Made by a program: the position numbers and the translations under genes
Notes under the pieces: generated by a model
Database searches by the model: none
Told to the model about the DNA's origin: nothing
What the model saw: the letters and a program-made list of their open reading frames with translations, nothing else
NCBI RefSeq assembly: GCF_011065895.1
Contig: NZ_JAALCR010000009.1
Coordinates: 1 to 64,000, forward strand
Origin: Paludisphaera rhizosphaerae
Lineage (GTDB): Bacteria > Planctomycetota > Planctomycetia > Isosphaerales > Isosphaeraceae
Length of the DNA: 64,000 nucleotides
Reading direction: 5' to 3'
In this document: positions 8,821-48,000 of the stretch, piece after piece
Numbering within the stretch: the stretch's first letter is position 1
Layout: the number at the start of each line of letters is the position of its first letter

Positions 8821-8822
8821 TA

Positions 8823-27227: not shown

Positions 27228-27264
27228 TTCACGTGGCGGGTAGCGAAATCACTTTTTTGCTCGG
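27228..27264 (+). promoter_or_regulatory. PAM and protospacer-like target of the antisense RNA
   Basis: TTC at 27228-27230 is the type I-C PAM. The next 17 bases, ACGTGGCGGGTAGCGAA, match the pseudo-spacer start ACGTGACGGGTTGCGAA except at positions 6 and 12. Position 18 also differs and similarity ends there. The site lies between a -10-like CATAAA (27218-27223) and the ATG at 27274. Cascade bound here would block transcription into the small ORF and the cas5-cas2 operon. Confidence 0.72.
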
Positions 27265-27273
27265 AGGGTCAGC

Positions 27274-27525: not shown

Positions 27526-27540
27526 ATCCTTCACCGCCGA

Positions 27541-27562
27541 GGCCGCCAGCCGTTTGGCGGCC
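27541..27562. other. Hairpin between the small ORF and cas5
   Basis: GGCCGCCA and TGGCGGCC form an 8-bp stem with a six-base loop, 16 bases after the small ORF stop and about 35 bases before the cas5 start. It may act as an attenuator or weak terminator separating the small ORF from the cas operon. No T-run follows. Confidence 0.45.
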
Positions 27563-27595
27563 TCCACCAATAACTCTGACCACCAGGGTGGCTTC

Positions 27596-28252
27596 ATGAG
27601 TGTTCGTCTTCGCGTTTGGGCGGGGCTCGGCTGCTTCACACGCCCCGAGATGAAGGTGGAGCGCGCTAGCTATGATGTAATCACGCCGTCGGCCGCCCGT
27701 GGTGTCATCGAGGCGATCTACTGGAAGCCAGAGATTCGCTGGGTAGTCACTCGGATTCACGTCCTCAAGCCAATCCGTTTCACATCACTCCGACGCAACG
27801 AGGTCGCGAGTAAGATCCCGGCGACGACAGCGGCGTCGGCGATGAAGGCCGGGAAAGGTCGTCTCGGCACGTATGTCGAGGAGGACCGGCAGCAGCGCGC
27901 GGCGACGATCCTCCGCGACGTCGACTACGTCATCGAGGCCCACTTCCAGATCCTGAGCGGCGAGGACAACCCGGCGAAGCATCTCGATCAGTTCAACCGG
28001 CGCGCCCGCGAGGGCCGGTGTTGGAGCCGGCCTTTCCTCGGCTGCCGAGAGTTCCCGGCGAGTTTCGCCCTGGTCGAGGAAGGTGAGGCCCTCCCCGCGG
28101 TTCCCGACGAATTGAAGGTAGAGCGCGATCTCGGGTTCATGCTCCACGACATCGACTTCAACGACGGAATGACGCCGCGGTTCTTCCGCGCCGTGCTTCG
28201 CGACGGTGTGATCGACGTCCCCCCCTTCGACTCGGAGGAGGTCCGCCGATGA
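27596..28252 (+). CDS. cas5: Cas5c (Cas5d), crRNA-processing Cascade subunit
   Basis: This is a 218-residue protein starting MSVRLRVWAGLGCFTRPEMK, the canonical N-terminus of Cas5 in type I-C. The frame is open upstream, but this ATG matches the family start. Further family segments are SARGVIEAIYWKPEIRW and CWSRPFLGCREFPASF. In type I-C it replaces Cas6 by cutting repeats to leave an 11-nt 5' handle, and it caps the Cascade complex. It overlaps cas8c as ATGA. The intact handle in the antisense repeat-like RNA would be its processing site. Confidence 0.93.
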   Translation: MSVRLRVWAGLGCFTRPEMKVERASYDVITPSAARGVIEAIYWKPEIRWVVTRIHVLKPIRFTSLRRNEVASKIPATTAASAMKAGKGRLGTYVEEDRQQRAATILRDVDYVIEAHFQILSGEDNPAKHLDQFNRRAREGRCWSRPFLGCREFPASFALVEEGEALPAVPDELKVERDLGFMLHDIDFNDGMTPRFFRAVLRDGVIDVPPFDSEEVRR

Positions 28253-30027: not shown

Positions 30028-30964
30028 CGCCCTCTCCCACCGATACGACATCGTCTACTTCTTTGACATCACCGACGGCAACCCGAACGGCGATCCCGAT
30101 TCCGGCAACCTACCCCGACTCGACCCGGAGACTGGCCAGGGCCTGGTCACCGACGTCTGCCTGAAGCGGAAGATCCGCAACTTCGTCGGTCTCACCCACG
30201 GCGAGCAGCCGCCGTTCGAGATCTACGTCAAGGAGAAGGCCGTCCTCAACCAGCAGCACGAGCGAGCGTACTCGGCGCTGAAGCTGGACGCCAAGAAACG
30301 CTCGGCCAAGGGGAAGGACAAGGCCGAGGAGGACCGTCGGCTGACCCGTTGGATGTGCGACAACTTCTTCGACATCCGGACCTTCGGGGCCGTCATGACA
30401 ACCGAGGTCAACTGCGGCCAGGTCCGCGGCCCGATCCAGTTCGGCATCGCGCGCTCGCTCCACCCGATCATCACCCACGAGCACGCCGTCACGCGATGCG
30501 CCGTGACGACCCCCGCCGAGGCCGAGAAGCAGGACGGCGGCAACCGCACCATGGGCCGCAAGTTCACGGTGCCCTACGGCCTCTACCGGGTCCACGCCTT
30601 CGTCAATGCGAACCTCGCCAGCGGGTCAAACGGGACCGGTTTCTCCGAGGCCGACCTGGAGCTTTTCAAGCGGGCGCTCGACCAGATGTTCGAGAACGAC
30701 AAATCCGCCGCCAGGGCCAATATGAAGCCCGTGGCGTGCGTCGCCTTCCGCCACGAGAGCCCGCTCGGCAACGCCCGCTCGGACAAGCTCTTCGCCCGAG
30801 TCCAATGCGGCGTCAAGCCGGGCGTCCAGCCCCTCCCCGGCGACTCGGAGACGTCGGTCGACGAGGGCCGACCCCCGCGGTCGTTCGACGATTATGTCCT
30901 GACGGTCGACGAGGGCGGCCTCCCCCAGGGCGTGACCGTCGAGCGCTGGGTCGACTGGACCTGA
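30020..30964 (+). CDS. cas7: Cas7c (Csd2), Cascade backbone subunit
   Basis: This is a 314-residue member of the Csd2 family. Signatures are [53 protein letters not shown] and [14 protein letters not shown]. Several copies polymerise along the crRNA, and their thumb loops flip out every sixth base. Mismatches at positions 6, 12 and 18 are therefore tolerated, which explains the mismatch pattern of the self-target upstream of cas5. The start overlaps cas8c by eight bases. Cas4 follows after three bases. Confidence 0.96.
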
Positions 30965-30967
30965 GCC

Positions 30968-31615
30968 ATGCCATACTCCGAGACCGACCTGCTGCCGATC
31001 TCCGCCCTCCAGCACCTGCTGTACTGCGAACGGCAGTGCGCGTTGATCCACGTCGAGCGGCAGTGGGCGGAAAACCGGGAGACGGCCCAGGGGAACATCC
31101 TCCACAAGAAGGCCCACGGCGGGAAGTCGACCACGAGGCCCGAGGGGCGTTCCCTTCGGGCCTTGCCGCTGCGGTCGCTCGCACTGGGACTCTTCGGTGT
31201 GGCCGACGTCGTTCAGTGCCGGCCGGGCGAGCCGCCGGTCCCCGTCGAGTACAAGCGGGGACGTCCCAAGAAGAACGACTGCGACCGCGTCCAGCTCTGC
31301 GCGCAGGCCCTATGCCTTGAGGAGATGACGGGCCAGCCCGTCCCGCTCGGTGAGTTGTTCTACGGCAAGACGCGACGTCGCGTCGCCGTCGAGACGTCGC
31401 CGGGACTGCGTCGCGTGACGGCCGAGGCGGCGGCCCGGCTCCACGAGCTGATCCGCGACGGTCGCACGCCAACAGCTGAGCCCGGACCGAAATGCGAACG
31501 CTGCTCGTTGCGGGAATTGTGCCTCCCCCACCTCGGCCGACGCGGTTCCGCCCGATCGGCATTCGACCGGCTGCTCGACTCCGTAGTCGCCGCCGAGGAG
31601 GAAAACAGTCGATGA
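30968..31615 (+). CDS. cas4: Cas4 adaptation exonuclease
   Basis: This is a 215-residue RecB-like nuclease that trims prespacers and helps select PAMs during acquisition. The first iron-sulfur Cys is in LYCERQCAL and the last three in CERCSLRELC. The RecB motifs are GNILHKKAH, the VADVV segment and VEYKRG with the QL-x2-YA-like VQLCAQAL. Its length is normal. The stop overlaps the cas1 start (ATGA). Confidence 0.93.
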   Translation: MPYSETDLLPISALQHLLYCERQCALIHVERQWAENRETAQGNILHKKAHGGKSTTRPEGRSLRALPLRSLALGLFGVADVVQCRPGEPPVPVEYKRGRPKKNDCDRVQLCAQALCLEEMTGQPVPLGELFYGKTRRRVAVETSPGLRRVTAEAAARLHELIRDGRTPTAEPGPKCERCSLRELCLPHLGRRGSARSAFDRLLDSVVAAEEENSR

Positions 31616-32655
31616 AGACCCACCTCAACACTCTGTACGTCACGACCCAGGGCTCGTACCTCGCCAAGCAAGGGCTGACGGTGCAGGTCCGGATCGACGG
31701 CAAGCCCCGGGCCCAACTTCCGCTGCACAACCTTGAGGGGATCGTCTGCTTCGGCCGCGTCGGCTGCTCGCCCGCGCTGATGGGCGCCTGCGCCGATCAG
31801 GGGGTCGCGATCTCATTCCTCACGGAACGGGGCCGTTACCTGGCGTCGGTACGCGGAGCCTCTCACGGGAACGTCCTGGTGAGGCGACGGCAGTATCGGC
31901 TGGCCGACGACCCCTCGACAGCCCTCGACGTCGCACGTCGGATCGTCCTGTCCAAGGTGGCGAACTCACGAAGCGTGCTCCTCCGCGCGGCTCGGGACGC
32001 CGAGGGCGCGGCGAATCGCGTCGCGGAGCTTCAAGCCGCCGCCAACCGCCTGTCGGCCTCGGTTCACGAACTCCGCGGAGCGACGTCGCTCGACTCCATC
32101 CGCGGCCTCGAGGGAGAGGCGGCCACGCATTACTTCGGAGCCTTCAACGCCCTGCTCAGCAACGCCCCCGCGAGTGACACTTTTCGATTCACTCGGCGGA
32201 GCCGCCGCCCGCCGCTGGATCCGATCAACGCCCTGATCTCGTTTCTGTACACCCTGCTGCTTCACGACGCCCGATCCGCCTGCGAGGCCGTCGGCCTCGA
32301 CCCCTGCGTGGGCTTCCTCCACGCCGACCGGCCGGGCAAGCCCAGCCTAGCTCTCGACTTGATGGAGGAACTCCGAGCGTACGTCGCCGATCGCCTCGCC
32401 TACTCCCTGATCAACCGACGTCAGGTCTCCGCCGACGGCTTCAAACTCCTCGATAACGGGGCGATCGAGATGACCGACGCGACGCGCAAGGCCGTCCTCG
32501 TCGCTTACCAGGAGCGCAAACGCGACCCACTGACGCACCCCTTTCTCGCCGAGAAGACCGTCGTCGGCATGCTCCCCCACCTCCAGGCTCTCCTCCTCGT
32601 CCGCTGGATCCGCGGCGACCTCGACGCCTACCCGCCTTTCCTCTGGAAAGGTTGA
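31612..32655 (+). CDS. cas1: Cas1 integrase, type I-C
   Basis: This is a 347-residue spacer integrase. The start at 31612 overlaps the cas4 stop and gives the expected N-terminus, [15 protein letters not shown]. The catalytic Glu lies in [13 protein letters not shown], the His in [19 protein letters not shown] and the Asp just after it in the same segment. The closing SLINRRQV and [19 protein letters not shown] are typical of the subtype. It works as a complex with Cas2 at the leader-repeat junction downstream. All catalytic positions are present. Confidence 0.96.
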
Positions 32656-32734
32656 CGGGGCGCCGCGACCGTCGACCACGACCCGCCTGCTCGTTTCTCA
32701 GCCGGGACGGCCTTGCCTCAAGTCGGAGCCCTTC

Positions 32735-33025
32735 ATGTACGTCCTCGTGACTTACGACGTTCAGACGACCTCGCCCGACGGCAAGCGACGACTGCGACGC
32801 CTGGCCCGAGCCTGCCTCGACTACGGCCAACGCGTACAGCTCTCCGTGTTCGAGCTCAAGCTCGACCCCGCCCTTTGGGCCAGTTGCCGCGAACGCCTCC
32901 TCTCCATCATCGACCCCGAGCATGACAGTCTTCGGGTCTATCATCTGGGCTCCCGCTGGGAAGGCCTGGTCGAGCACCACGGAGCCAAGCCCGGCTTCGA
33001 TCTCGAAGGGCCCCTGATTCTCTGA
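32735..33025 (+). CDS. cas2: Cas2 adaptation subunit
   Basis: This is a 96-residue protein with the ferredoxin-like Cas2 fold. Beta-1 is [11 protein letters not shown] with the conserved Asp. [18 protein letters not shown], the arm VYHLGSRW and the end DLEGPLIL match the subtype I-C form. It bridges two Cas1 dimers during spacer integration. It is the last cas gene, 177 bases before the first repeat. Confidence 0.95.
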
Positions 33026-33202: not shown

Positions 33203-36200
33203 GTCGCCCCCCATGCGGGGGCGTGGATTGAAACATCACCCACGAGTACTTCGTCGACGAGATCGAGAGTCGCCCCCCATGCGGGGGCGTGGATTGAAAC
33301 TGCAACCGGGGTTCGAGCTGCGAGAGGCGGCGGGTCGCCCCCCATGCGGGGGCGTGGATTGAAACCTCCGGGGGACGGGGAGGCGAGGGATGAAGTTCAG
33401 TCGCCCCCCATGCGGGGGCGTGGATTGAAACTTTGCACAGATCGAGTATGGGGTGGGGCTCAAGTCGCCCCCCATGCGGGGGCGTGGATTGAAACGTGAA
33501 GAGGAGTGCTAGGGCGCAGCGAGCCTTCACGTCGCCCCCCATGCGGGGGCGTGGATTGAAACTCACGCAGCTCCTTGGCCGTGATGTGGCCGACGGTCGC
33601 CCCCCATGCGGGGGCGTGGATTGAAACCAGGCTCCTGAGTTGTAGAACCGCTTGGAATCTTGGTCGCCCCCCATGCGGGGGCGTGGATTGAAACCTCGAA
33701 GGTCGCTGCGAGCACACCCGCAAGGCGTAGTCGCCCCCCATGCGGGGGCGTGGATTGAAACTTACGTACGCCAACCCTGCCTTTCATCACGTCTCGGTCG
33801 CCCCCCATGCGGGGGCGTGGATTGAAACAAACTGACCGAGGCCAAGGCCCTGGGCGTCCCCCAGGTCGCCCCCCATGCGGGGGCGTGGATTGAAACTCGC
33901 CGTGCGAGTGGCGAAGCCTGGACGGCCTGGTGTCGCCCCCCATGCGGGGGCGTGGATTGAAACCCAGCCAAATCCAAGGTCGTCTCAGCCTCCCAGCGGG
34001 TCGCCCCCCATGCGGGGGCGTGGATTGAAACGCTGACGGCACGTCCTTTAGGATCGCCAGTGCTGGTCGCCCCCCATGCGGGGGCGTGGATTGAAACACC
34101 ATGCGGAGGTCGATCGCCCGAATCCGCTTCAGTCGCCCCCCATGCGGGGGCGTGGATTGAAACTTAGTACGGGTGTCCTAAAGCATGGCGAGTTGAGTCG
34201 CCCCCCATGCGGGGGCGTGGATTGAAACCTCGACAACTGAGACAGATCCGACTCCGCCGACGTCGCCCCCCATGCGGGGGCGTGGATTGAAACGTCTGAT
34301 GCCCTATATGCCACCCCCGGCACAATGTCGCCCCCCATGCGGGGGCGTGGATTGAAACCTCGCCACCGGCCGCACCGGGAGCACGCTGACCGTCGCCCCC
34401 CATGCGGGGGCGTGGATTGAAACATGGCTTCGCAAAGCGCGAAGTAATAGCCCTCCATGTCGCCCCCCATGCGGGGGCGTGGATTGAAACGCGATGTCCC
34501 CAAGGGCTTCGTCGCCGATGGAGCCGTCGCCCCCCATGCGGGGGCGTGGATTGAAACCAGTGAGCATGCTGTGTGATGTCAGACGGTCAGAGCGTCGCCC
34601 CCCATGCGGGGGCGTGGATTGAAACTCATGCACGCGGACAACCTGAAGCTCATGCCGAGTCGCCCCCCATGCGGGGGCGTGGATTGAAACCTCAAGCAGT
34701 CCTTGATTGTGCCGGCGGCGGCCCTGGTCGCCCCCCATGCGGGGGCGTGGATTGAAACGAGATGGTACAACAAACACTCCCTGGAGGCGAAGCGTCGCCC
34801 CCCATGCGGGGGCGTGGATTGAAACCACCGGGCTTACACCGGCGATGGCTACGTTCACGACGTCGCCCCCCATGCGGGGGCGTGGATTGAAACTACGGCC
34901 GAGCGGCGAGCGTCACTGAATGGCTGCTGTCGCCCCCCATGCGGGGGCGTGGATTGAAACCATCGGAGGCAGTCTCACGCTGGCCCCGGGGACGTCGCCC
35001 CCCATGCGGGGGCGTGGATTGAAACCTATGGTGGATATGGTGCATGGCATGGAAAACGAGTCGCCCCCCATGCGGGGGCGTGGATTGAAACCTTGGTCAA
35101 CCCGTTGAGCCACAGCCAGAGTCGAGTCGCCCCCCATGCGGGGGCGTGGATTGAAACCGTGGATTCCGAAGGCGTCTGCCCCGTGGCGATTCGTCGCCCC
35201 CCATGCGGGGGCGTGGATTGAAACGTTTGGTTTCCTCGCCAACGGGCCGCTCCCACATGGTCGCCCCCCATGCGGGGGCGTGGATTGAAACGTGTTGTCC
35301 GAGCCGTTGACGGCCCCGCTGGTGGAGTCGCCCCCCATGCGGGGGCGTGGATTGAAACTCACGTCTGGGGCCAGTCGTCCATGACAACCGCGTCGCCCCC
35401 CATGCGGGGGCGTGGATTGAAACACGAACGTCGCGGCCGACTGTCGCAAATACGCCGAGGTCGCCCCCCATGCGGGGGCGTGGATTGAAACGACTCGTTC
35501 GACGGACTTGATGGGGTTTGTGACTGTCGCCCCCCATGCGGGGGCGTGGATTGAAACCGCAATGGCTTTCGCGATCTTCCTGGCGTCGGCTTGTCGCCCC
35601 CCATGCGGGGGCGTGGATTGAAACGGCTTCCCCACGGTGGCCGTCGACACCCACGCCGGGTCGCCCCCCATGCGGGGGCGTGGATTGAAACCCAACGGTC
35701 GACTTCTCAAGCGACACCCCCCTTCGTCGTCGCCCCCCATGCGGGGGCGTGGATTGAAACGCTCTGGGCTCGCGGGCGAGGCGGAGCCCCTCCGCGTCGC
35801 CCCCCATGCGGGGGCGTGGATTGAAACCGTATCCCGGTTCACCGAGGACGCGAGGGTAACAAGTCGCCCCCCATGCGGGGGCGTGGATTGAAACGTCTCG
35901 GCCTCGATCGACTCGACCGGCGCGACGGGCGTCGCCCCCCATGCGGGGGCGTGGATTGAAACCGCTCCACCCTGGCGACTCACCGGACCTTATCTGGTCG
36001 CCCCCCATGCGGGGGCGTGGATTGAAACCATCCAGTACCAGCCTGGTTCAGTCGGAAGCCCTTGTCGCCCCCCATGCGGGGGCGTGGATTGAAACCAGTA
36101 TGGACCCAACCCCGACTCCAACAACGGCCAGTCGCCCCCCATGCGGGGGCGTGGATTGAAACTCGCTGCGTGGCGGGGAGACAACGCGGATGACGGGTCG

Positions 36201-36633
36201 CCCCCCATGCGGGGGCGTGGATTGAAACTTTGACGAGGGGCGGGACTACGTAGAAATGCCCTTGTCGCCCCCCATGCGGGGGCGTGGATTGAAACGCAGT
36301 TGGTGCAGTTGATCCCATCGGGCCAACTGACGTCGCCCCCCATGCGGGGGCGTGGATTGAAACTGCCTCCCGAACGTCAGCGTCAGTCCGGCTACCTATG
36401 TCGCCCCCCATGCGGGGGCGTGGATTGAAACGAGCCGCCGACCTGCTGCCGGTTCAACTCGCGGAGTCGCCCCCCATGCGGGGGCGTGGATTGAAACGCT
36501 CGGAGCCGATGAACACGGCCTGGCCATAAGGGGTCGCCCCCCATGCGGGGGCGTGGATTGAAACGGCGAACGATTCCGCTCCCCATTCGGCGGGAGATGT
36601 CGTCGCCCCCCATGCGGGGGCGTGGATTGAAAC
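33203..36633 (+). CRISPR. Type I-C CRISPR array, 52 identical repeats
   Basis: The 32-bp repeat begins GTCGCCCCCCATGCGGGGGC and ends GTGGATTGAAAC, the standard type I-C form. By eye I count 52 copies with no sequence variation, with start-to-start periods of 64-69 bases (spacers 32-37 bases). A further degenerate repeat start, GTCGCCCCCATCGAGTGG, lies at 36670 after the last spacer and marks the distal end. Transcription runs rightward from the leader beside cas2. The uniform repeats and large spacer number suggest recent, active acquisition. Open frames across the array encode repeated RPRMGGD-type peptides and are artefacts. Confidence 0.98.
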
Positions 36634-36994
36634 CGCTCGTGGGGGCGATCGCGTCGAAGCGGCCGGAGTGTCGCCCCCATCGAGTGGCGGGAGCAATCGG
36701 CGGGTCGCCGATCCGCCTGGTTCCTCCTCACGCGACACGTCGGAGTAGGACCGCAGCTTCGGAAGTCGAACTCGGCCCGGACCTCGCAGGGCGGCCGCAA
36801 GATCCGCGCGGGGGCCAACGGGCCGATTCGTGGGAGAGCCTGACGCTCCGCTCACACCGCCCCAGCCCGAACCGAGGAAGGCCTTCTGACAGCCAGACGA
36901 AGGCGATCGGAGAATCGAACGCCGTGATCCATCAGGCGACGCGGAACCGCGGCCCTCCTCTGGGGCCGGCCCACGGCTAAAGAGAAGTGCAGTC
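36634..36994. other. Array-distal region without a supported gene
   Basis: It holds the last spacer (to about 36669), the degenerate terminal repeat, and then DNA whose open frames match no family. It ends at the terminator of the leftward cassette. Confidence 0.5.
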
Positions 36995-37027
36995 GCCCCC
37001 GCCGCGACCAGAAGTCGCGGCGGGGGC
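36995..37027 (-). terminator. Strong hairpin after the leftward five-gene cassette
   Basis: GCCCCCGCCGCGAC (36995-37008) pairs perfectly with GTCGCGGCGGGGGC (37014-37027) across a five-base loop. It lies 11 bases beyond the stop of the last leftward gene. It separates this cassette from the CRISPR array, which is transcribed towards it. Confidence 0.7.
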
Positions 37028-37038
37028 GGTCTTGGAGA

Positions 37039-37596
37039 TCAGCGTCTGCTGGGTCTCGGACGGATGTTGCCGGCGACGACGCTGCAGGCAACGAAGCCCG
37101 CCATCGCCAGGATGAAAACGAGCCAGCTGCCGCAGGCGCCACCGACGACGGCGGCGAGCAGCAGGCAGCCGTTGAAGTACGCGAGGTTTAGTTTGGTTCG
37201 GGCGTTCAAGCTACGTGGCCTCCTCCGCAAGAAGTGGATCTTCGGACCGCTCGCCGCACCGGTCGAGGCGGGGAAGTTCCGGCGACGGCCGAATCGAGAA
37301 AATGAATAACCGTATTCATCTGAGCGTGCTGAAACGGACTCAAAGACTGCTCGGCCGACTGAAGCTAGCCAGTCTCGTTCGATCCAGGCGACTTCGGCTT
37401 CCAGGGCCTGGACCCGGCGATCGAAAGGGCCCAGGATCGGGCCGCCGACGGGAGACAGGTCGGCCGCCCAGCGACCATGGGCGTCGGGCTCCACGAAGCT
37501 TGCGCGAGCGATCGCGAGCCGGCCCAAGGCGGCGAGTTCCAGCGCCTCGTCATAGATGCAGCGCACACGGCCGCGAGGGTCCACGAGGAGTCGCAT
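37039..37596 (-). CDS. Small conserved cassette protein, possibly fused to a membrane-protein tail
   Basis: The first about 80 residues (MRLLVDPRGRVRCIYDEALE, LAALGRLAIARASFVEPD, SPVGGPILGPFDRR) match a short protein that in planctomycetes and mobile elements follows Ycf46-like ATPases. The frame stays open beyond its usual end, through palindrome copy D, into a second part. That part begins with a basic stretch and has two hydrophobic helices (LAYFNGCLLLAAVVGGACGS, WLVFILAMAGFVACSVVAG). Either this is a true fusion or two neighbouring small genes whose separating stop was lost when the palindrome arrived. The ATG at 37596 overlaps the upstream stop (TGATG). The function is unknown. Confidence 0.6.
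   Translation of the reverse strand: MRLLVDPRGRVRCIYDEALELAALGRLAIARASFVEPDAHGRWAADLSPVGGPILGPFDRRVQALEAEVAWIERDWLASVGRAVFESVSARSDEYGYSFSRFGRRRNFPASTGAASGPKIHFLRRRPRSLNARTKLNLAYFNGCLLLAAVVGGACGSWLVFILAMAGFVACSVVAGNIRPRPSRR
37303..37318. repeat. Dispersed palindrome, copy D
   Basis: TGAATAACCGTATTCA keeps both TGAATA/TATTCA arms but has a non-palindromic centre, ACCG. Unlike the other copies it lies inside an open reading frame. Confidence 0.6.
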
Positions 37597-38576
37597 CACG
37601 AGCCCTCCGAGGCGGCGGCCTGCCGCAGGATCCGACGCCGAGGGCGATCGATCATCAGGTGATCGAGGGCCGCCTGGACCTGGACCAGCTGACGGGCCAC
37701 TCGTTCGCGTAGGTCCGACGCCTCGCGGAGGTCATGGGCCGCGATCCCCCGCACGGCTTGACGCGCCCTCTCGACCAGCTCGTCGAGCTGGGCGTCGCCT
37801 TGGACGTTGAGTTCGCGGAAGCGGTCGAAAAACGTCGTCAGGTTGTCGACGACCGAGTCGCGGAAGACCTTGGGCCGGCCGTCGTCGCCGACGCCTTCGA
37901 GCCGCTCGACGAGACGTTCCACAAGCCGGGCGAATTCCTCGGTGAAAGCACGCTCGGCGAGCGTCACCGCTTCCGCGAACCGCGACTCCATCCGCACCCT
38001 CTCCCGCTCATAGAGCGCCGGCGAGAGCCGCAGCAGGTAGTCGGGAGGGGCGACCGAAGGGAAGTCGCAGGTCACGGCGAAGAGCCCGACGAGCGTAGGC
38101 GGGTAGTCGGCAGGGTCGTAGAGCGAGCCCAACCGCTCGGCCGCCGCGCCACGCAATGCGTCGTAGCGGCGGTCGAGCTCCGCCACGGCGTCGTCCAGCT
38201 CCAGTCGGAAGTCGGCGATTCGCCGGGCGAATTCGTCCACGCGATCGCGGCGGATCAGCCGCACGCCGGGCTCGGGGAACGGCAGCGAGGACTCGCGCCA
38301 GTACGAACGAATCCGCCCTCGCACCGCGGTTACGGCCCGGAAGGCGGGATGTTTCACGTCCAGCAGCCGCTTGCCGGCGCTGAGGAAGCCGCCCTCGGCG
38401 GCGAAGGCCTCGGCGGCCCGATCGCGCTGCGACGGGGTGAGGGCCTTCTTCGTGCCCAGCCAGGTGAAGGAAACGCGCGCGGCCGCTGTCTCCTCTCGAA
38501 GTCGCCGGGCGGGCCCTGCGAGATCGTCCGGCGAAGTCGCCGCGGGAGGGATCATGACGTCGATCAAGGTGCTCAT
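37596..38576 (-). CDS. Helical protein of the Ycf46-type cassette, unknown function
   Basis: This is a 326-residue cytoplasmic protein. The ATG at 38576 has a perfect AGGAGG upstream. After SFTWLGTKKALTPSQRDRA it contains FLSAGKRLLDVKHPAFRAV, RIRSYWRESSLPF and YPPTLVGLFAVTCDFPSV. The C-terminal half is long, charged and helical (LVERLVERLEGVGDDGRPKV, then QVQAALDHLM). The middle weakly recalls the DUF3150 proteins of integrative elements, but I would not assert that. It sits between the AAA ATPase and the small terminal protein, with a one-base stop/start overlap to the latter, so it is probably a dedicated partner or substrate of the ATPase. Confidence 0.7.
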   Translation of the reverse strand: MSTLIDVMIPPAATSPDDLAGPARRLREETAAARVSFTWLGTKKALTPSQRDRAAEAFAAEGGFLSAGKRLLDVKHPAFRAVTAVRGRIRSYWRESSLPFPEPGVRLIRRDRVDEFARRIADFRLELDDAVAELDRRYDALRGAAAERLGSLYDPADYPPTLVGLFAVTCDFPSVAPPDYLLRLSPALYERERVRMESRFAEAVTLAERAFTEEFARLVERLVERLEGVGDDGRPKVFRDSVVDNLTTFFDRFRELNVQGDAQLDELVERARQAVRGIAAHDLREASDLRERVARQLVQVQAALDHLMIDRPRRRILRQAAASEGS

Positions 38577-38659
38577 CGATCCTCCTGAGAAATGAGAAAG
38601 GGCGACGGACTGCATGACCCGTCGCCCTGGTGAAACATTCATGGAATCACAAGTGCCGA

Positions 38660-40153
38660 TCAGTTGTTCGACGGGTCGCCGCGGCGGACGCTCCGGCGAG
38701 GGCCGTCGGCCGGGCCGAGACGCGAGTAGACGCCGGGCCGATCGGCGGCCAGGCAGCGGCCGGCGGCCCACGACCGCAGCCGCTCGATCGACTCGCCGGC
38801 CGAGGTGGCGACCGGCACGACGTGCCGCGCCGCCTCGACGAGCGGCGAGTCCAACAGGGCCGCCAGCCGGCAGCAGGACCGGATCTCGGCCCCCGTCCAA
38901 TCGGCGTCGCGAGGACGCCGCTGCGAGCGATCGAGGTCGAAACGGCCGAGGTGCAGCTCCCAGATCGCCTCCCGCTCGCGTGACGAGGGAAGGTCGAGGA
39001 AGTAGACCGCGTCGAACCTCTCGGCGCGGCTGAACTCCGTCGGCAGGCGCGAGACGTCATTCGCGGTGCAGACCACGAAGGCGTCGCTCTCGTGGTCGGC
39101 CAGCCAGGTCAACAACGCGCCGAACAAACGAGTCGAGACGCCGCCGTCGGACCGCCCGCCGGACTCGACGCCGGCGAGCGCCTTCTCGACCTCGTCGATC
39201 ATCAGGACGCACGGCGACATCGCGTCGACGAGTCGCAAGACCTGGCGGACGTTGGCCTCCGTCGCGCCGACGAGCGAGCCCATCAACGCCCCGACGTCCA
39301 GGGACAGCGTCGGCCGGCCGGTCTCGTTGCCGAGGGCCCTGGCCAGCGCGCTCTTGCCAGAGCCCGGAGGCCCGAGCAGGAGGACGCCGCGGGGTCGGAC
39401 GCCCTCCGGCCGCCCTGCCCGCAGCGCCCTCGAGCAGAACGACTTGAGGGCCTCCAGTCCGCCGAGGTCGGCGAACGTCTCGCCGCCGCGGTGCAGGTCC
39501 AGCAGGCCCGACTTCTTCAACATGCCGCCCTTGATCTCCCACAGCGGCTCCGCGGCCAGCCGACCGTGACGTACGAGCGACAGGCTGAACGCCCCCTCGG
39601 CCTCGTGTCGGGTGAAGCCGGCCGCGGCGTCCAGCACGCGATCCCAATCGTCGCCCTCGGGGATCTCGCCCGGCTCAACGGCGATCGAGCGTGCGATCGC
39701 CTCGAGTTGGTCGCGGCCGGGAAGGTCGTGCTCCAGCACGACGAACTGCTTCTCCAGCTCGACGGGGATCTGCACGACCGGCGACAACACGACCACGAAC
39801 GTCCGGGCCTGCTTGCCCGCGCAGATCCGGGAGTCCAGGGCCTGGACGACTTCAGGGCTGCCCAGGAACCGATGGAAGTTGAGCAGGATCAGCAGCCCCG
39901 CCCCGTCGGGGGCGGCCATCGCGTCCAGGGCCCGGATCGCCGCCAGCGGATCGCCCGCGTCGACGGGCGTCGGCTCCCCCGCCCCGCCGAAGGCTCGCAA
40001 GCCGCGGTCGACGTCCCAGGCGGCCAACGACCATCCGTGCCCGCGGCAGGCGGCCGCGATCTCGGCCAGGGCGTCCTCATGCTCGAACGATCGAATCCAC
40101 AATCCCGTGAAGCAGGCGCGCACGTACTCCACGAGGGCCTCCGAAAGACCCAT
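38660..40153 (-). CDS. AAA+ ATPase, Ycf46-like
   Basis: This is a 497-residue protein. The N-terminal about 200 residues form a degraded ATPase-like domain (GLLILLNFHRFLGSPEVVQA, FVVVLSPVVQIPVELEKQFV). The C-terminal AAA domain has Walker A GPPGSGKSALARALGNE, Walker B CVLMIDEVEKALAG, sensor FVVCTANDVSRLP and arginine-rich second region FSRAERFDAVYFLDLPS. This double arrangement is that of cyanobacterial and plastid Ycf46. The genes for DUF1257 (Ycf35-like) and DUF2997 immediately upstream complete a set that recurs in cyanobacteria, planctomycetes and some mobile elements. Its biochemical role is unknown. SD GGAGG precedes the start. Confidence 0.85.
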   Translation of the reverse strand: MGLSEALVEYVRACFTGLWIRSFEHEDALAEIAAACRGHGWSLAAWDVDRGLRAFGGAGEPTPVDAGDPLAAIRALDAMAAPDGAGLLILLNFHRFLGSPEVVQALDSRICAGKQARTFVVVLSPVVQIPVELEKQFVVLEHDLPGRDQLEAIARSIAVEPGEIPEGDDWDRVLDAAAGFTRHEAEGAFSLSLVRHGRLAAEPLWEIKGGMLKKSGLLDLHRGGETFADLGGLEALKSFCSRALRAGRPEGVRPRGVLLLGPPGSGKSALARALGNETGRPTLSLDVGALMGSLVGATEANVRQVLRLVDAMSPCVLMIDEVEKALAGVESGGRSDGGVSTRLFGALLTWLADHESDAFVVCTANDVSRLPTEFSRAERFDAVYFLDLPSSREREAIWELHLGRFDLDRSQRRPRDADWTGAEIRSCCRLAALLDSPLVEAARHVVPVATSAGESIERLRSWAAGRCLAADRPGVYSRLGPADGPRRSVRRGDPSNN

Positions 40154-40268
40154 CTTCGCCTCCGTCGTTGTTGAAGTTTTGAAGGACCGTGAAGCGGCGT
40201 CCGGCGAGGCCCTTCGCGCCGCCTCGATGATCGGCGGCCGGTCGCCTCGTCGAGCTGGACTCCGCCGC

Positions 40269-40463
40269 TCAGCGGGACTGCCGCTGTTCCGCCTCGATCG
40301 TCGCGTCGCGGTGGTAATCCGAGGTGAGCGTCTCGGCGGTCCGCCGTCCGAGGGCCTCCTCGACGAATCGACTCGCCTCGCGACACCCCGAGCCGGCGAA
40401 GCCCTTGGTCCTCACAGTCGTCTCGCCCTTGGGCCCGACGATGATTTCGACGACTCGACTCAA
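40269..40463 (-). CDS. DUF2997 small protein
   Basis: This is a 64-residue protein beginning with a TTG codon that overlaps the upstream stop as TTGA, so its translation is coupled. VVEIIVGPKGETTVRTKGF, then GCREASRFVEEALGRR, is the DUF2997 signature: a short beta-hairpin and a helix with a Cys. These proteins always accompany DUF1257 and Ycf46-like genes. The function is unknown. The start is not an ATG, so automatic calling may miss it. Confidence 0.78.
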   Translation of the reverse strand: MSRVVEIIVGPKGETTVRTKGFAGSGCREASRFVEEALGRRTAETLTSDYHRDATIEAEQRQSR

Positions 40464-40828
40464 TCCCCACCCCCGACCGCGACGGTCAGCAAGATCGAGC
40501 CGTCGGCCAGCGTCTTCTCGACGACCGAGTGCCCGCGGCGGCGGGCCTCGATCCGTGCCTTCTCCACGGCGTAGGCCTGCAGCAGCCGGTCGAGTTGGAT
40601 TTGGTCGCCCCAGGCCCCGCCGTAATCGTCGAAGCGGATGCGGCCCGTGGTCGTCTCCGCCGCCACCGGGTAGACCCAACCGGGCAGCCTCACCAGCAGC
40701 CCGACCACGTCGCCCGAGTACAGCCTGGCCGTGCCGAACGTCGGCTCGGGCAGCCCCAACCGCCGACACGCCGCCGCGACCGCGGCCGGGTCGCGGACCT
40801 CCGTCGCGATCGTCACCACGTGACTCAT
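40460..40828 (-). CDS. DUF1257 (Ycf35-like) protein
   Basis: This is a 122-residue protein. The ATG at 40828 has GGAGGA six bases upstream and yields the family start MSHVVTIATEVRDPAAVAAA. CRRLGLPEPTFGTARLYSGD, VVGLLVRLPGWVYPV and FDDYGGAWGDQIQLDRLLQA followed by YAVEKA define DUF1257. The end, GHSVVEKTLADGSILLTV, is also typical. It is the first gene of the leftward five-gene operon. Homologues include plastid Ycf35. No activity is established. Confidence 0.85.
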   Translation of the reverse strand: MSHVVTIATEVRDPAAVAAACRRLGLPEPTFGTARLYSGDVVGLLVRLPGWVYPVAAETTTGRIRFDDYGGAWGDQIQLDRLLQAYAVEKARIEARRRGHSVVEKTLADGSILLTVAVGGGD

Positions 40829-41442: not shown

Positions 41443-41530
41443 GGAGAGGTGACCGAGAGGCCGAAGGTGCGGCACTGGAAATGCCGTGTACGCTAACCCC
41501 GTACCGAGGGTTCGAATCCCTCCCTCTCCG
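41443..41530 (+). tRNA. tRNA-Ser (anticodon GGA)
   Basis: This is an 88-base gene with acceptor arms GGAGAGG and CCTCTCC, an anticodon loop CTGGAAA with GGA at 41477-41479, a long class II variable arm and a T arm GGGTTCGAATCCC. The 3' CCA is not encoded. A terminator-like hairpin follows at 41548. tRNA-Ser genes are common integration targets, but I see no repeated 3' end elsewhere in the window. Confidence 0.95.
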
Positions 41531-41547
41531 CTGAATTCGATTCTTTG

Positions 41548-41888: not shown

Positions 41889-43610
41889 TTGCCGCCACAA
41901 CAATCGGCCGACGCCAGCCAGCCCGTATCGAATCGGATGCGTAAGGATTTCACCTCCATCCTCCTCGGTCAGACCGTCGAGCAGGCGCTGAATTTGTTGC
42001 GTCGCAATCCGAATGGAGACGCGGTCGTCTATTTCTACGTCATCGACGAGGAAGGCCGGCTGCGGGGCGTCGTACCGACCAGACGGCTGATCCTCAGCCC
42101 TCCGGACGCCCCGGTGACGGACATCATGCTCAAGGACCCGATCGCCGTATCCGAATCGGCGACCGTTCGGGAAGCCTGCGAGCTTTTCCTCCGGTACCGC
42201 CTCCTGGCGTTCCCAGTCGTGGACGAGGAGCAACGGCTCCGCGGCGTCGTGGACGTCGACCTTTACACCCGCGAGTTGGAACGGCCGGAAGGTCCGACAG
42301 TGGTCGGCCGGCTGGTGCAGCCGTTCGTCCGGTTCATGCACATCGAGTCGTCCGGCGGGCTCGTGCTGCTGGCCGCCACGGCGATCGCGCTCGCCCTGGC
42401 GAACTCCCCCTTTGCGGAACGCGTTCATGAGTTCTGGGAAACACCGGCCGGGGTGACGTTCGGAAGCTTCGAACTCATCGAGCCGCTGCTGCATTGGGTC
42501 AACGACGGCCTGATGACCCTCTTCTTCTTCGTCGTTGGGCTGGAGATCAAGCGCGAGCTTGTCTCCGGGGAGTTAGCCGATCCAAGGAAGGCCCTGCTGC
42601 CGATCGTCGCCGCCTTCGGAGGTATGGTCGTACCGGCGCTCGTCTATTCGATCGTGCTCTGGGGACGGTCCGGGAGGGAGGGATGGGGCGTGCCGATGGC
42701 CACGGACATTGCGTTCGTGGTCGGCTTTCTGACGCTGCTCGGCCCGCGCGTCCCGAACGGCCTGAAAGTCATGCTCCTGAGCCTGGCCATCGCCGACGAC
42801 ATCGGTGCCGTGCTCGTTATCGCGGCCGCCTACAGTGGGCCGATCGCCCGCGAGCCCATCGCCCTGGCCGGCGCGGGGTTCCTGCTGATCCTCCTCCTGC
42901 GATGGCTGGGGGCGCGGAACGTCGTGACTTACACCGTCGTTGGGGTAGGGATCTGGTACGCCGTCCTGAAATCGGGCGTCCATCCGACCGTGGCGGGAGT
43001 TGTGCTCGGCCTGCTGACGCCGGCTCGCCCGCTGATGAACCGAGGCGTCCTCATCGACGCCGTCGGCGATCTTTACAACCGTATCCGCGGCATCAAGGAA
43101 GGGGAGCCGCAGGAAGCCCCCGAAGTATCGTCCCCCGCCGAGCGGCTGGAGCATGCGCTGCATCCGTGGGTCGCGTTCGTCATCATGCCGGTTTTCGCTC
43201 TGGCCAACGCGGGCGTCTCTGCCGAACCCAGTGCACTGACGACGCCCGTGGCTCTGGCGGTCGCGGCCGGCCTGGCGATCGGCAAGCCGATTGGGATCGT
43301 GTTGTTCAGCTGGCTGTCCGTCCGGATCGGCCTGACCCGGCTTCCCCTCGGAGTCGACTGGCGCATGATGATCGGGGCGGGCTGTCTCGGAGGCATCGGC
43401 TTCACGATGTCGTTCTTCATCGCCGGCCTCGCCCTTCAGGGGGAACTGCTGGACGATGCGAAGATCGGCATCCTCGTGGGCTCCGGGCTCAGCGCGATGC
43501 TCGGTTGCTTGCTGCTGATCAGGGCGTTGCAACGTTCCGGCGGCGACTCAGGCTCTCTGCATCGCGAAGCGCCGGTCGGCCCTTCAGAGGCGGTGGCTTC
43601 GGGCGTTTGA
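41889..43610 (+). CDS. nhaA: Na+/H+ antiporter NhaA fused to N-terminal CBS domains
   Basis: This is a 573-residue fusion. The TTG start has GGAGGG eight bases upstream; an ATG at 41937 is the alternative. Residues about 15-130 form a CBS pair, with GQTVEQALNLLRRNP, VYFYVIDEEGRLRGVV, DIMLKDPIAVSESATVREA and FPVVDEEQRLRGVVDVD, as in MgtE-type sensors. From about 150 it is a full NhaA: SSGGLVLLAATAIALALANS, FFFVVGLEIKRELVSGEL, ATDIAFVVGFLTLLG (Asp133 equivalent) and LSLAIADDIGAVLVIAA (Asp163-Asp164). It exchanges sodium for protons across the inner membrane. The CBS part probably senses a nucleotide or ionic signal to gate transport. Standard NhaA lacks it. Confidence 0.93.
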   Translation: MPPQQSADASQPVSNRMRKDFTSILLGQTVEQALNLLRRNPNGDAVVYFYVIDEEGRLRGVVPTRRLILSPPDAPVTDIMLKDPIAVSESATVREACELFLRYRLLAFPVVDEEQRLRGVVDVDLYTRELERPEGPTVVGRLVQPFVRFMHIESSGGLVLLAATAIALALANSPFAERVHEFWETPAGVTFGSFELIEPLLHWVNDGLMTLFFFVVGLEIKRELVSGELADPRKALLPIVAAFGGMVVPALVYSIVLWGRSGREGWGVPMATDIAFVVGFLTLLGPRVPNGLKVMLLSLAIADDIGAVLVIAAAYSGPIAREPIALAGAGFLLILLLRWLGARNVVTYTVVGVGIWYAVLKSGVHPTVAGVVLGLLTPARPLMNRGVLIDAVGDLYNRIRGIKEGEPQEAPEVSSPAERLEHALHPWVAFVIMPVFALANAGVSAEPSALTTPVALAVAAGLAIGKPIGIVLFSWLSVRIGLTRLPLGVDWRMMIGAGCLGGIGFTMSFFIAGLALQGELLDDAKIGILVGSGLSAMLGCLLLIRALQRSGGDSGSLHREAPVGPSEAVASGV

Positions 43611-43800
43611 CGCCAGGCCCGAACCTCTCTCGGGGGGCCCAGCGGCCGACAGCGATGATCCGTGATCCTGCAAGGACTCGACGTCGGTCTCCGGGGCGAC
43701 GCAACGACCGGGCGGACCGCGCCGGCGTCGCCTTGGGGCGAAACGACGCCTCCTCAGCCGCGTCGTCGTCGTCAGGCCGTCTCGCCCCGAGGCCTTTGTG

Positions 43801-43829
43801 TTGACTAATCAACCGTTATGGCATATAGT
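43801..43829 (+). promoter_or_regulatory. Near-consensus promoter/operator of the second RND operon
   Basis: TTGACT (43801-43806) and TATAGT (43824-43829) are separated by exactly 17 bases. TGACTAATCAAC overlaps the -35, and GCATATAGTTG covers the -10. Both elements recur in the same spacing upstream of the DUF1264 gene. The TTGA-N4-TCAA symmetry suggests a dimeric repressor site, plausibly for the ArsR protein encoded nearby. Confidence 0.75.
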
Positions 43830-43915
43830 TGTTTTCGGCGAAGTCGGGTGTTCTCGGGAGGAATCGGCCTCTCGAAGGAATCGCCCAGGAGTCTGTGACG
43901 ATGAAGAGGTGAACG

Positions 43916-45055
43916 ATGACCTCCGCGTCGAGAGGGGCGGCCGATCGGGGCCGGCGCTACAAACGGGTGTTCTTGACGGCGACGCTCGCGACGGCGTTCA
44001 CGATCGGGGTGGCGGTCCTGATGATGGAGCTGGCCGGCGTCTTCGAGCCGAAGGTCAAGGTCGGGACGTCGCCGTATGCGGCGGCGCCGCCGGCGCCGAC
44101 CGGGTCGGAGGTGGCGGCGGTGAAACGGGTCCGTCGGCCCCGCCGAGAGTCGGCCGTCGGGACCGTCCGCGCCGTTCACGAGGCGGTAGTCGGTTCCAAG
44201 ATTCTCGCGCGGGTCGAGGAGGTCCGTGTGAAGGCGGGCCAGGACGTCAAGCAGGGGGACGTGCTGGTCGTTCTGGACAAGGCGGATCTCCAGTCCCGGC
44301 TGCAGCAGGCTCTCGCCGAGGAGGCGGCGGCCGAGGCCAAGTACAACCAGTCGGAAGTCGAGCTGGGGCGGGTTCGGCGGCTCCGAGCCCGAGAGGCGAG
44401 CACGCAGAGCGAGCTCGACCAGGCGGCCACATCCCAGCAGACGGCCAAGGCCGAGCGCGACCGCGCCCACCGGGCGGTGGAGGAGGCCCGGATCATGGAG
44501 TCGTACGCCACGGTGCTCGCACCGATCGCGGGGCGAATCGTGGACAAGCAGGTCAACGCCGGCGACACCGTCAGCCCTGGACAGGCGCTGGTAACCATGT
44601 ACGACCCGACCCGGATGCAGATGATCGCCACGGTGCGCGAGTCGCTCGCCGTGCATTTGAGCCCCGGGCAGGAACTGGCCGCGCGGCTGGACACGCTCGA
44701 CGTGGAATGTCACGCGACGGTCAGCGAGATCGTTCCCGAGGCCCAGGCCGAGAGTCGGTCCTTTCAGGTCAAGGTGACCGGTCCGTGTCCGCCCAACGTC
44801 TACAGCGGCATGTTCGGCCGGATCTTCATCCCCCTGGAGGATGAGGAGGTTCTGGTTCTGCCGTCTGCGGCCGTCCGTCGGGTCGGCCAGCTCGACGAGG
44901 TGGACGTCGTCGAGGACGGCCGAGTCAATCGCAGGGTCGTTCAACTGGGCCGCACCCTCGGCGAGGGCCGGGAGGTCCTCTCCGGGCTGAAGGAAGGGGA
45001 ATCGGTCGTTCTCCTCAGGGGCGATGCCGCCCACAAGGCCGGGGGTGGATCATGA
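43916..45055 (+). CDS. RND efflux adaptor (MFP), second system
   Basis: This is a 379-residue periplasmic adaptor. It has a single N-terminal membrane anchor (VFLTATLATAFTIGVAVLMM) instead of a lipobox. Lipoyl halves are VGSKILARVEEVRVKAGQDV with LVVLDKADL, and TVLAPIAGRIVDKQVNAGDT. Between them is a coiled coil with REASTQSELDQA. The membrane-proximal part ends in GLKEGESVVLLRG. It is translationally coupled to the permease (ATGA). It lies behind a strong promoter at 43801-43829. Confidence 0.9.
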   Translation: MTSASRGAADRGRRYKRVFLTATLATAFTIGVAVLMMELAGVFEPKVKVGTSPYAAAPPAPTGSEVAAVKRVRRPRRESAVGTVRAVHEAVVGSKILARVEEVRVKAGQDVKQGDVLVVLDKADLQSRLQQALAEEAAAEAKYNQSEVELGRVRRLRAREASTQSELDQAATSQQTAKAERDRAHRAVEEARIMESYATVLAPIAGRIVDKQVNAGDTVSPGQALVTMYDPTRMQMIATVRESLAVHLSPGQELAARLDTLDVECHATVSEIVPEAQAESRSFQVKVTGPCPPNVYSGMFGRIFIPLEDEEVLVLPSAAVRRVGQLDEVDVVEDGRVNRRVVQLGRTLGEGREVLSGLKEGESVVLLRGDAAHKAGGGS

Positions 45056-48000
45056 GCCGAGGAGATTCCGACGAGGCGCGCCAGGACGCCGCCGAGCCGA
45101 AGCGGCACGACCTGCTCAACGGGATAGTCCACGTCTTCCTCGACAACAACTTCTCGCTGATCCTGATCGTCGTCTCGGTCCTGATCGGCGTCGCGGCCCT
45201 GCTGGTCACGGCACGAGAAGAGGACCCGCAGATCGTCGTGCCGCTGGCCGACGTGCTGGTCAGCATGCCTGGCTTCTCCGCTGAACAGGTCGAGCAACTG
45301 GCGGCGACGCCCCTGGAGAAGGTTCTCTATCAGATCGACGGCGTGGAATACGTTTACAGCACGTCCAGGGAGAACCAGGCCGTCATCACGGTCCGGTTCT
45401 ACGTTGGGCAGGACCGCGAGCGGAGCCTGGTGAAGCTCTTCAAGAAGCTCGACGAGAACCAGGACGTGATTCCAGCCGGCGTTGCAGGGTGGGTCGTCAA
45501 GCCGGTCGAGATCGACGACGTGCCGATCGTTACGCTGACGTTGACGGGGGGCGAAGGGGACGGGTACACACTCCGTCGCGTTGGCGAGGAAGTGGTTCAG
45601 CGCCTGTCGGCGCTTCCGGGGGTGTCGCGGGCCTACACCGTCGGCGGCGAACCCCGGTCGATCCGGATCGACCTCGACCCGGAACGGCTCCAGGCTTACG
45701 CGCTGAGCCCCCTGGAGGTTCAGAAGGCCCTGCAGGGGGCCAACGTCACCCGCCCCGCCGGCGAGTTCACGCGGGACGATGCGGTCGTTCACGTCGACGC
45801 CGGCGTGGCGGTGGATCGTCCGGAACGACTCAATGAACTGGTCGTGGGAGTCTTCCAGGATCGGCCGGTCTTCCTCCGAGACGTGGCCGCCGTGCGCGAC
45901 GGCCCCGCCGAGGCGACTAGCTACGTCCGGCACGGCTGGGGGCCGGCCCGGGGCTTCGAGGCGCCGGAGGGTTTTCCCGGCGAGGTCATCGGCGAGGACG
46001 AAGGCTCGCAGGATTCTCACCCGGTCGCAGGGGGCTCGCGGCCGGCGGTCACCCTGGCCGTCGCCAAGCAGAAGGGGACCAACGCGGTCGGCATCGCCGA
46101 ATCCGTCCTCGAAGCCGCCAGGACGCTACGGGCCGAGGTCATCCCGACGGACATGCAACTGATCGTCACCCGAAACTCGGGCCTGACGGCCGACGAGAAG
46201 GTCAACGAGCTGGTCGAGGGCTTGTGGGTGGCGATCGCGATCGTGATCGCCCTGTTGACCCTGAGCCTGGGCTGGCGCGAGGCAGTGATCGTCGCGGTCG
46301 CGGTGCCGGTGGTCTTCGGACTGACGCTCGGGGTCAACCTGCTCTTCGGCTACACCATCAACCGAGTGACGCTGTTCGCTCTGATCCTCTCGCTGGGCCT
46401 CCTGGTCGACGACCCGATCGTCGACGTGGAGAACATCGCGCGGCACTTCGCGATGCGCGGCCGGGCGACGAAGGACATCGTGCTGGAGGCCGTGGCCGAG
46501 ATCCGGCCCCCCCTGATCAGCGCCACGCTGGCGGTGATCGTGAGCTTCCTGCCGATGTTCTTCATCACCGGGATGATGGGCCCGTACATGGGCCCCATGG
46601 CTCTGAACGTCCCGGTCGCGATGCTGATGTCGATGGTCGTCGCGTTCACGATCACGCCCTGGCTCTCGTACCAGTTGCTTCACAAGAAGCATGGAGCGGA
46701 CGGAGCGGCGGCCAACGGTCACTCGGACGAGGACGACGTCGAGGCGATTCGGGCGACGCTCCTCTATCGGTTCTTCCGGCCGCTGATGGCCCCGCTGATC
46801 AGCTCCCGGCTGGCCGCGCTGACGTTTCTGACGCTGATCGCGCTGTTGACCGCGGCAGCAGCCGGCCTTGCGGCCCTGCGCGTCGTGCCGCTGAAGATGC
46901 TCCCCTACGACAACAAGAACGAATTGCTCCTGGTGGTCGACTTCGACGAAGGGACGACGCTCGAACGGGCCGATGCGGCGGTCGTCGACCTGGAGGCCGA
47001 GCTGGCCAGGGTCCCCGAGGTCGTCCAGTACGTGAGCTACGTCGGGACCCCCAGTCCGATGGACTTCAACGGCCTGGTGCGGCATTACTACCTGCGGCAG
47101 GCCCCGCACAACGCCGAGATCCGGGTGAACCTCGTGGGCAAGAAGCACCGCGAGGCGCAGAGCCACGCGATCGCCCTGCGGCTCCACGACGGCCTGACCG
47201 AGCGGGCGGAACGGCACGGCGCGCGGCTGAAGATCGTCGAGCTTCCGCCCGGCCCACCGGTGCTCTCTTCATTGGTGGCGGAGGTCGCCGGCCGACCCGA
47301 CCAATCGTACGACGATCTCGTGGCGGCGGCCGGCGTCGTCGCCAGGCGGCTGGCCGTCGAGCCGGGAGTCGCCGAAGTGGATGACACGGTCGAGGCGCCG
47401 GCGCGGAAGCTGGTGTTCGTGACCGATCAGGAGAAGGCGGCGTTGAACGGGGTGTCGGTCGATGAGATCGCCCGAACGCTCCAGGTCGTCCTCTCCGGAG
47501 GCGACGGCGGGACGGTCCGCGTCCCCGGCGAACGGAACCCTCTGCGGATCGAGGTCCGCCTGCCGCGGCCGATCCGCTCCAGCCGGTACGACCTGGCGGT
47601 CGTCCGGGTTAAGGGCCGGTCGGGGCATTTCACTCCGCTCTCGGAGCTGGGCCGCTGGGAGGAAACGCGCGTCGATCAGTCGATCTACCACAAGAACCTG
47701 GAGCGCGTGGTCTACGTCACCGCCGAGACGCTTGGCAGGACGCCCGCGGAATGCGTCCTCGACGTGACCTTCGACCAGCAGTTGGACGGATCGTCCGCGC
47801 CGGACGCGTCGTGGCGGTCTCCGGGGGGATGGGTCGCCGAGGCTTCTCCGCGTCCGCTGGCGGAGCGGACGTTCATCCACAACGGCGGCGGCGTGGGCTG
47901 GTCCGTCCCCGAGGGAACCCGCGTCGGATTTCGCGGCGAGGGGGAATGGAAGATCACGATCGACGTCTTCCGCGACCTGGGGATCGCCTTCGGCGCGGCG

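Follow-up and report, generated by a model that had tools for sequence, protein, structure and literature searches.

The first 64,000 nucleotides of contig NZ_JAALCR010000009.1 of Paludisphaera rhizosphaerae (hereafter the window) contain a cassette of five open reading frames, A to E, all on the minus strand, with a CRISPR array on one side and a tRNA-Ser gene (41443-41531) on the other, in agreement with an earlier sequence-only reading of this DNA. These five genes form one conserved unit. The A-B-C-D-E order recurs in 33 retrieved orthologous loci and in 7 loci of a distant paralogue group, and where flanks suffice among 102 distinct loci, almost all of them planctomycete, A is present in 79 of 80, B in 80 of 80, D in 78 of 85 and E in 77 of 85. 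Deduplication of 113 loci removed 11 to leave these 102, and the pool includes the best 80 of 272 relatives from a contig scan of named genomes, nearly all of these 80 being labelled as planctomycetes with a few other titles such as Emcibacter and Variovorax metagenome-assembled genomes. Flanking genes were called by custom codon-usage callers, by which small flanking genes are assigned with less certainty. A protein of about 204 residues, encoded at 8758-9399 of locus L087 and in 17 other loci, often between B and C, shows weak likeness to part of GajA (4e-4). In the distant AAA/DUF2997 group (about 30% identity), L065 and L067 lie near frames read as type IV pilus and prepilin-like genes.

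Core proteins and the fused fifth gene

B is a DUF2997 protein (PF11211), as had been expected, with a Pfam score of 52.9 bits against a cut-off of 24.1. A had been taken for a DUF1257 gene, but its score for DUF1257/Ycf35 (PF06868) stays at 14.4 bits, below the cut-off of 22.2, and when profiles are compared it matches a DUF1257 protein confirmed by Pfam weakly (E 0.005, prob 7), so that A is called DUF1257-like only. Together with the sub-threshold match, this label is based on a homologue of 42% identity whose neighbours, on a plasmid of Thermovibrio, are a DUF2997 gene and an AAA gene. C contains an AAA domain (PF00004, 92.2 bits) with motifs that are invariant or nearly so, and matches the phage family phrog_8638 across nearly its whole length (1e-82). 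The double-domain ATPase proposed earlier is confirmed in this domain, but Pfam finds one domain only, and the second AAA domain may correspond to an N-terminal region that appears degenerate when judged by eye. C scores 72 bits for CDC48 and about 16 bits for RFC models and is a classical AAA protein; an RFC/DnaX-type clamp loader was rejected. The name Ycf46-like for C follows what we take to be annotation usage and not an alignment of C with any Ycf46 sequence. Pfam assigns no family to D or E, and D itself does not match DUF3150 (PF11348) even when E values as high as 1 are allowed. D is homologous to one accepted DUF3150 member, a protein of L073, which scores 37.7 bits for PF11348 (cut-off 24.9) and aligns with D at E 5e-13 in BLASTP and E 7e-15 in hhalign. 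PADLOC reports no system on the cassette and no match for A, B, D or E; C matches ten of its models, best IetA, in the AAA part only.

The tight coupling claimed for the cassette holds at A/B and D/E, which overlap by 4 bases each (TTGA at A/B) and are the sole overlaps, but not at B-C and C-D, where gaps of 115 bp and 83 bp are found, the latter holding a terminator-like hairpin (Table 1). The 14-bp-stem terminator that was read at the end of the module is indeed a strong stem-loop, but its stem has 16 bp and is not immediately followed by a T-run.

The fifth gene had been described as encoding a small protein. The frame is open, but it joins two proteins: residues 1-81 correspond to conserved E, and residues 126-186 correspond to a membrane protein of 56-57 residues that relatives encode separately, at a distance of as much as about 3 kb downstream. 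The blastn alignment of the window with L032, a locus of the same genus, is unbroken from 40822 to 37378 and resumes from 37210 to 37061, now matching L032 DNA that lies 2.5 kb beyond the break. The same jump is seen in L036 and L056, whose homology with the window ends at 36994-36997. This jump indicates that E lost its stop codon and was fused to the small membrane protein, the intervening genes being gone. The fifth gene of the window is therefore a read-through fusion left by a deletion of about 2.5 kb. A to D and the first 81 residues of E are intact, and their dN/dS against relatives is 0.18-0.53. That the frames are more than chance is borne out by the comparison with four same-genus copies, in which C has a dN/dS of 0.30-0.35 and D one of 0.18-0.21.

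Table 1. Positions of the cassette genes and associated features in the window
Feature	Positions	Strand	Basis or remark
A, DUF1257/Ycf35-like protein, 122 aa	40460..40828	-	adjoins C in 79/80 loci with flank; Pfam 14.4 bits, below cut-off
B, DUF2997 protein, 64 aa, TTG start overlapping A	40269..40463	-	Pfam 52.9 bits; 80/80 loci
C, AAA ATPase, 497 aa, Walker A GPPGSGKS and Walker B region conserved	38660..40153	-	Pfam; phrog_8638 1e-82
Terminator-like hairpin, 12 bp, between C and D	38599..38628	-	4 such sites in region, 2.8 expected in shuffles
D, DUF3150-like helical protein, 326 aa	37596..38576	-	homology to accepted DUF3150 member
Fifth frame, whole, 186 aa	37039..37599	-	open reading frame
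E proper, residues 1-81 of fifth frame	37357..37599	-	comparison with relatives
Deletion site, read through; lacks about 2.5 kb of L032/L036 (F, clamp G, H)	37211..37377	-	blastn alignment breaks at 37378 and 37210
Remnant of gene I of relatives, a small membrane protein, fused to E	37039..37210	-	blastn, frames of relatives
Stem-loop ending module, 16 bp, -47 kcal/mol, z -6.8	36994..37028	-	L036/L056 homology stops at 36994-36997

Mobility of the cassette

The cassette is patchily distributed. Among 59 genomes searched, a subset encodes an orthologous ATPase (54-80% identity), several with more than one copy, and no copy is found in the same-genus genomes G002 and G005. D is encoded in 40 of 118 genomes of the class, with 84 copies in total and up to 7 per genome; the cassette core is single-copy in the window genome. 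One fixed chromosomal position, which would have spoken against the sequence-only reading, is not seen: besides the absence from G002 and G005, the same-genus copies in G001, G003 and G004 sit at differing places. In a tree of C, from which 3 of 112 rows with C shorter than 440 residues were dropped, the copy of G003 groups with that of G014, a Singulisphaera, and not with the other same-genus copies, with 100% support in the SH-like approximate likelihood-ratio test (SH-aLRT). Serine recombinases flank 14 of the 102 loci, and the Tn7/Tn5053-like TniA, TniB and TniQ flank 5, 6 and 7 of them, respectively. Family matches confirm such flanking genes (a resolvase/recombinase in a viral copy, a Mu-transposase C (TniA), TnsC and TniQ), and L032 ends in frames read by eye as a tyrosine recombinase. 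Relatives of D are encoded on 45 viral contigs, 16 of which carry A-B-C-D-E in the order of the window; in others these families stand in a different order, as in L178 and L181 (C-D-A-B-E). A terminase is present in 4 of 20 viral records, including that of L160, and for the rest the viral nature is not proven here. Homologues of C occur in 91 phage records and in 736 plasmid records (identity up to 39%), where they adjoin genes annotated as DUF1257, DUF2997 and once DUF3150. The patchiness, the multiple copies per genome, the recombinases, the viral and plasmid copies and the G003/G014 grouping together support the cassette as a mobile unit, as the sequence-only reading had supposed.

The same distribution disfavours a host housekeeping set of the Ycf46/Ycf35 kind, which would have no mobile role and of which the window copy would be an ordinary member. 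Although the homologues of such a set are cyanobacterial and plastid genes, the presence in 40 of 118 genomes, the copy numbers up to 7, the absence from two same-genus genomes and the foreign genes inside some copies make this explanation very improbable. The same presumed transposase of 604 residues lies inside the AAA gene in L037 (8645-12570) and L044 (8117-12036), in two different planctomycete genomes and at different codons of that gene.

A link to tRNA genes, suggested by the position of the cassette, is not general, a tRNA gene being found in the fetched flank of 5 of 33 planctomycete loci. With this count, and with no tRNA repeat of at least 13 bases elsewhere in the window, tRNA-Ser as the attachment site of a tRNA-integrated island was rejected. 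Beside the tRNA gene, window positions 41889-48519 encode an AcrB-type efflux pump (471 bits) and, in a frame so read, an NhaA-like antiporter. At the threshold used, an NhaA orthologue is present in just one other same-genus genome, G005, where the upstream DNA is not homologous to the window and provides no clean empty site.

Clamp and ubiquitin-like genes in the downstream slot

The genes deleted from the window occupy a slot downstream of E in relatives. There, E is followed by F (73-101 residues), G and H, and sometimes then by a PDDEXK_1 nuclease (109 bits). One such fuller copy, with F, the clamp, H and the nuclease, is that of the cultured planctomycete strain Pan216 (L055/L137). A PDB profile match of G (hmmsearch, 1.5e-6), its AlphaFold model (pLDDT 85) and the Foldseek match of this model to beta-clamps (E 3e-21) identify G as a predicted DnaN-like beta-clamp. 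In other loci, E or F is followed by genes for a ubiquitin-like protein (Ubl), an E2-like protein, a JAB protein and an E1 in a row. The kit E1 matches ThiF with 75 and 86 bits. The Ubl scores 18.7 bits for ThiS, below the cut-off of 22.5, and the JAB protein scores 23 bits for Prok-JAB, below the cut-off of 25; the JAMM residues of the latter are invariant, and its best PDB match is Rpn11 (E 0.005). The E2-like protein has no Pfam match. It contains an invariant HPHV-x5-C motif and a C-terminal run of CxxC pairs, with a match to the B-box of Midline-1 (E 8e-4). The name E2 is a reading of the HPHV-x5-C motif, which we take to be an E2 active-site pattern. In L099 (11735-12754) and 11 aligned relatives, the E2-like part and the RING/B-box-like zinc cluster are in one polypeptide.

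Over 7.5 kb of downstream DNA is available at 61 loci; of these, 21 have the clamp, 18 the Ubl kit, 22 neither and none both, and the C tree, with 49 labelled rows, shows at least 8 switches between clamp and kit. In an independent count over the 118 genomes, 23 of 35 E2 genes lie on the same strand as D, 956-2435 bp downstream of it; in L090, the kit is found upstream of A instead of after E or F. A ubiquitin-like conjugation operon is present at those 18 relatives and not at the window locus, where none of Ubl, E2, JAB and E1 is among the genes called beside the cassette; the window genome lacks an E2-type protein at E 1e-20. The viral contig of L160, which has a terminase elsewhere, carries a serine recombinase, A to F, Ubl, E2, JAB and E1 in one run (4020-14191).

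The clamp fold, the PDDEXK_1 nuclease and the phage homologues of C (phrog_8638 and the phage records) are consistent with a phage-derived replication or recombination module, in which the AAA protein would load the encoded clamp and the RecB-like nuclease would process ends. However, the clamp is present at only about a third of the loci (21 of 61) while the core is near-universal, the Ubl kit replaces the clamp in 18 of 61, and C is closer to classical AAA proteins than to RFC models, making such a module quite unlikely.

We favour, with a probability of roughly 0.42, the reading that the core is a module of mobile elements of planctomycetes and some of their viruses, namely an AAA+ protein-remodelling complex with an exchangeable targeting part. 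C would remodel or extract protein complexes, A and B serving it as adaptors while D is its helical partner. Because C keeps its ATPase motifs and because A, B, D and E travel with C and are constrained, a complex of A to E is likely as judged from these sequence features. In full copies, the downstream slot would supply the targeting part, which may be a homologue of the sliding clamp that acts at DNA or a ubiquitin-like kit that tags proteins; a RecB/Cas4-like nuclease sometimes comes next. That clamp and Ubl kit replace each other in one slot suggests two ways of choosing a client and yields a definite proposal for the way in which an ATPase of this kind may be aimed. The likely use would be competition between genetic elements or element maintenance. 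The window copy would have kept A to E under purifying selection and lost the slot by deletion, and it may be either a minimal version acting alone, as slot-less viral copies may, or an orphan using parts supplied elsewhere.

Several observations weigh against this remodelling complex with an exchangeable targeting part. The fold of D has no PDB match at E 0.001, and the Ubl-like protein of the kit does not end in Gly-Gly. The mutual exclusion of clamp and kit (Fisher p 9e-5) is confounded by phylogeny and BLAST sensitivity. Among the E2 genes, 12 of 35 are not beside D, 5 of these in genomes without D. The large viral contigs carry A to E without clamp or Ubl kit in the stretch examined, and these contigs and the 22 of 61 loci with neither module suggest that the core can act without slot modules. 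Since the window copy is without any targeting part, the mechanism may not hold for it.

It is also conceivable, if somewhat unlikely, that the window copy is a decaying relic that has been nonfunctional since the deletion. The lost slot and the fused fifth gene speak for such decay. Against it, A to D and E residues 1-81 are intact with the dN/dS values given above and the ATPase motifs are kept, although pairwise dN/dS cannot date a recent loss. As an AAA+ core that has lost its slot, the window copy is a useful natural minimal version.

Defence neighbourhood and known systems

The window contains a complete type I-C CRISPR-Cas system (cas3, cas5, cas8c/Csd1, cas7, cas4, cas1 and cas2 at 24776-33025, by Pfam) with an array of 52 repeats at 33203-36633. 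In some C genes, 20 bases of the Walker B region are identical to part of spacer 1; as the best full-length match of this spacer (23/34) is equalled by other spacers, this is treated as chance, and targeting of the cassette by the CRISPR spacers was rejected. The defence association proposed earlier is seen in the neighbourhood statistics: cas1 lies within 13 kb of 4 of 36 copies, with 0.09 expected under uniform placement, and an N6-methylase lies within 10 kb of 5 of 36, with 0.17 expected, these distances having been chosen after data inspection and one partial cassette of G036 near a methylase having been left out. Directly upstream of A and divergent from it, DISARM-like or type I restriction-modification genes are found in L047, L049, L050, L053, L055 and L058, where DISARM-like refers to one SNF2 helicase (L058), one Eco57I methylase (L049) and BLAST clusters, and not to drmA, drmB or drmC. 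Over 7.9 kb, the module of L047 is 91% identical to that of L049, and their flanks are not alike. L047 and L050 share the module and a helix-turn-helix gene, and one of them adjoins a DISARM-like helicase and the other HsdM. That the same module meets different systems indicates that it travels among defence genes, not that it defends.

There is the possibility that the cassette is a stand-alone anti-phage system of defence islands, in which the ATPase would sense or dismantle phage complexes. The excess of cas1 and N6-methylase neighbours, the divergent genes upstream of A in six loci and the best PADLOC match of C, IetA, are consistent with this possibility. However, the IetA match covers the AAA domain only, PADLOC assigns no system, the same cassette is found on viral contigs, the core families are clustered on plasmids, mobile elements gather in islands anyway, and the distances were picked once the data had been seen. 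A stand-alone anti-phage system is thus rather unlikely; the gene neighbourhoods support the defence link as one of location and not of function.

Several known systems can be compared with the cassette and its fuller copies. G of relatives shares the three-domain clamp fold of DnaN, the beta clamp of DNA polymerase III, but it is 13-20% identical, has an extra helical tail, lies within a mobile module and is deleted in the window. The row of Ubl, E2-like, JAB and E1 genes in 18 of 61 relatives resembles the bacterial ubiquitin-like operons treated in the pertinent parts of Iyer 2006 (PMC1779556) and the PADLOC E1-E2, JAB and BilD models. It differs from them in its solo E1, its E2 fused to a RING-like zinc cluster and its AAA/DUF1257/DUF2997/DUF3150 partners, and the window itself has no such kit. 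The main text of PMC1779556 contains none of the strings AAA, planctomycet and pirellula. Among the open-access papers listed for DUF1257/DUF2997, Ycf46/Ycf35 (mainly plastid genomes) and ubiquitin-like operons, none was seen to describe such an arrangement, and none was listed for DUF3150 or for these families combined with defence or mobile genetic elements; any priority for the E2-RING kit is put forward with reserve.

The Ycf46/Ycf35/DUF2997 genes of cyanobacteria and plastids are homologous as an AAA family, a DUF1257-like family and DUF2997, but the window cassette unites these families in one operon-like unit with a DUF3150-like D and E, on mobile DNA. A CO2-use phenotype is cited for Ycf46 in PMC7496141, and a DUF2997-ycf35-fed7 cluster is named in PMC4284462. 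Where they occur on mobile DNA, ycf35, ycf46, DUF2997 and DUF3150, families without clear function, are one gene unit, and they can therefore be tested as one complex. A broader proposal would make the core (Ycf46-like C with A, B and D) a bacterial counterpart of Cdc48/p97 on mobile elements. Its interchangeable modules, a sliding-clamp homologue directed at DNA-bound complexes or a ubiquitin-like tag with a one-chain E2-RING ligase and an Rpn11-like protease, would serve inter-element conflict, and Ycf35 and Ycf46 of plastids would have arisen from this complex; the proposal is doubtful.

The same core families are also clustered in plasmid AAA-DUF1257-DUF2997 sets (Candidatus Manganitrophus, with DUF3150, Thermovibrio, Geminocystis and IncC), which differ in that their C homologues have 29-39% identity and that no clamp or Ubl kit was found there. 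A JAB protein of Manganitrophus was rejected as a Ubl-protease, being RadC. In the IncC conjugative plasmid of L075 (8782-10942), an AAA gene, a gene for a protein starting with MSHIV and a DUF2997 gene lie in a row, the MSHIV-starting protein not being a Pfam DUF1257 match. The IncC homologues make the hypothesis of an exchangeable targeting part testable in laboratory E. coli.

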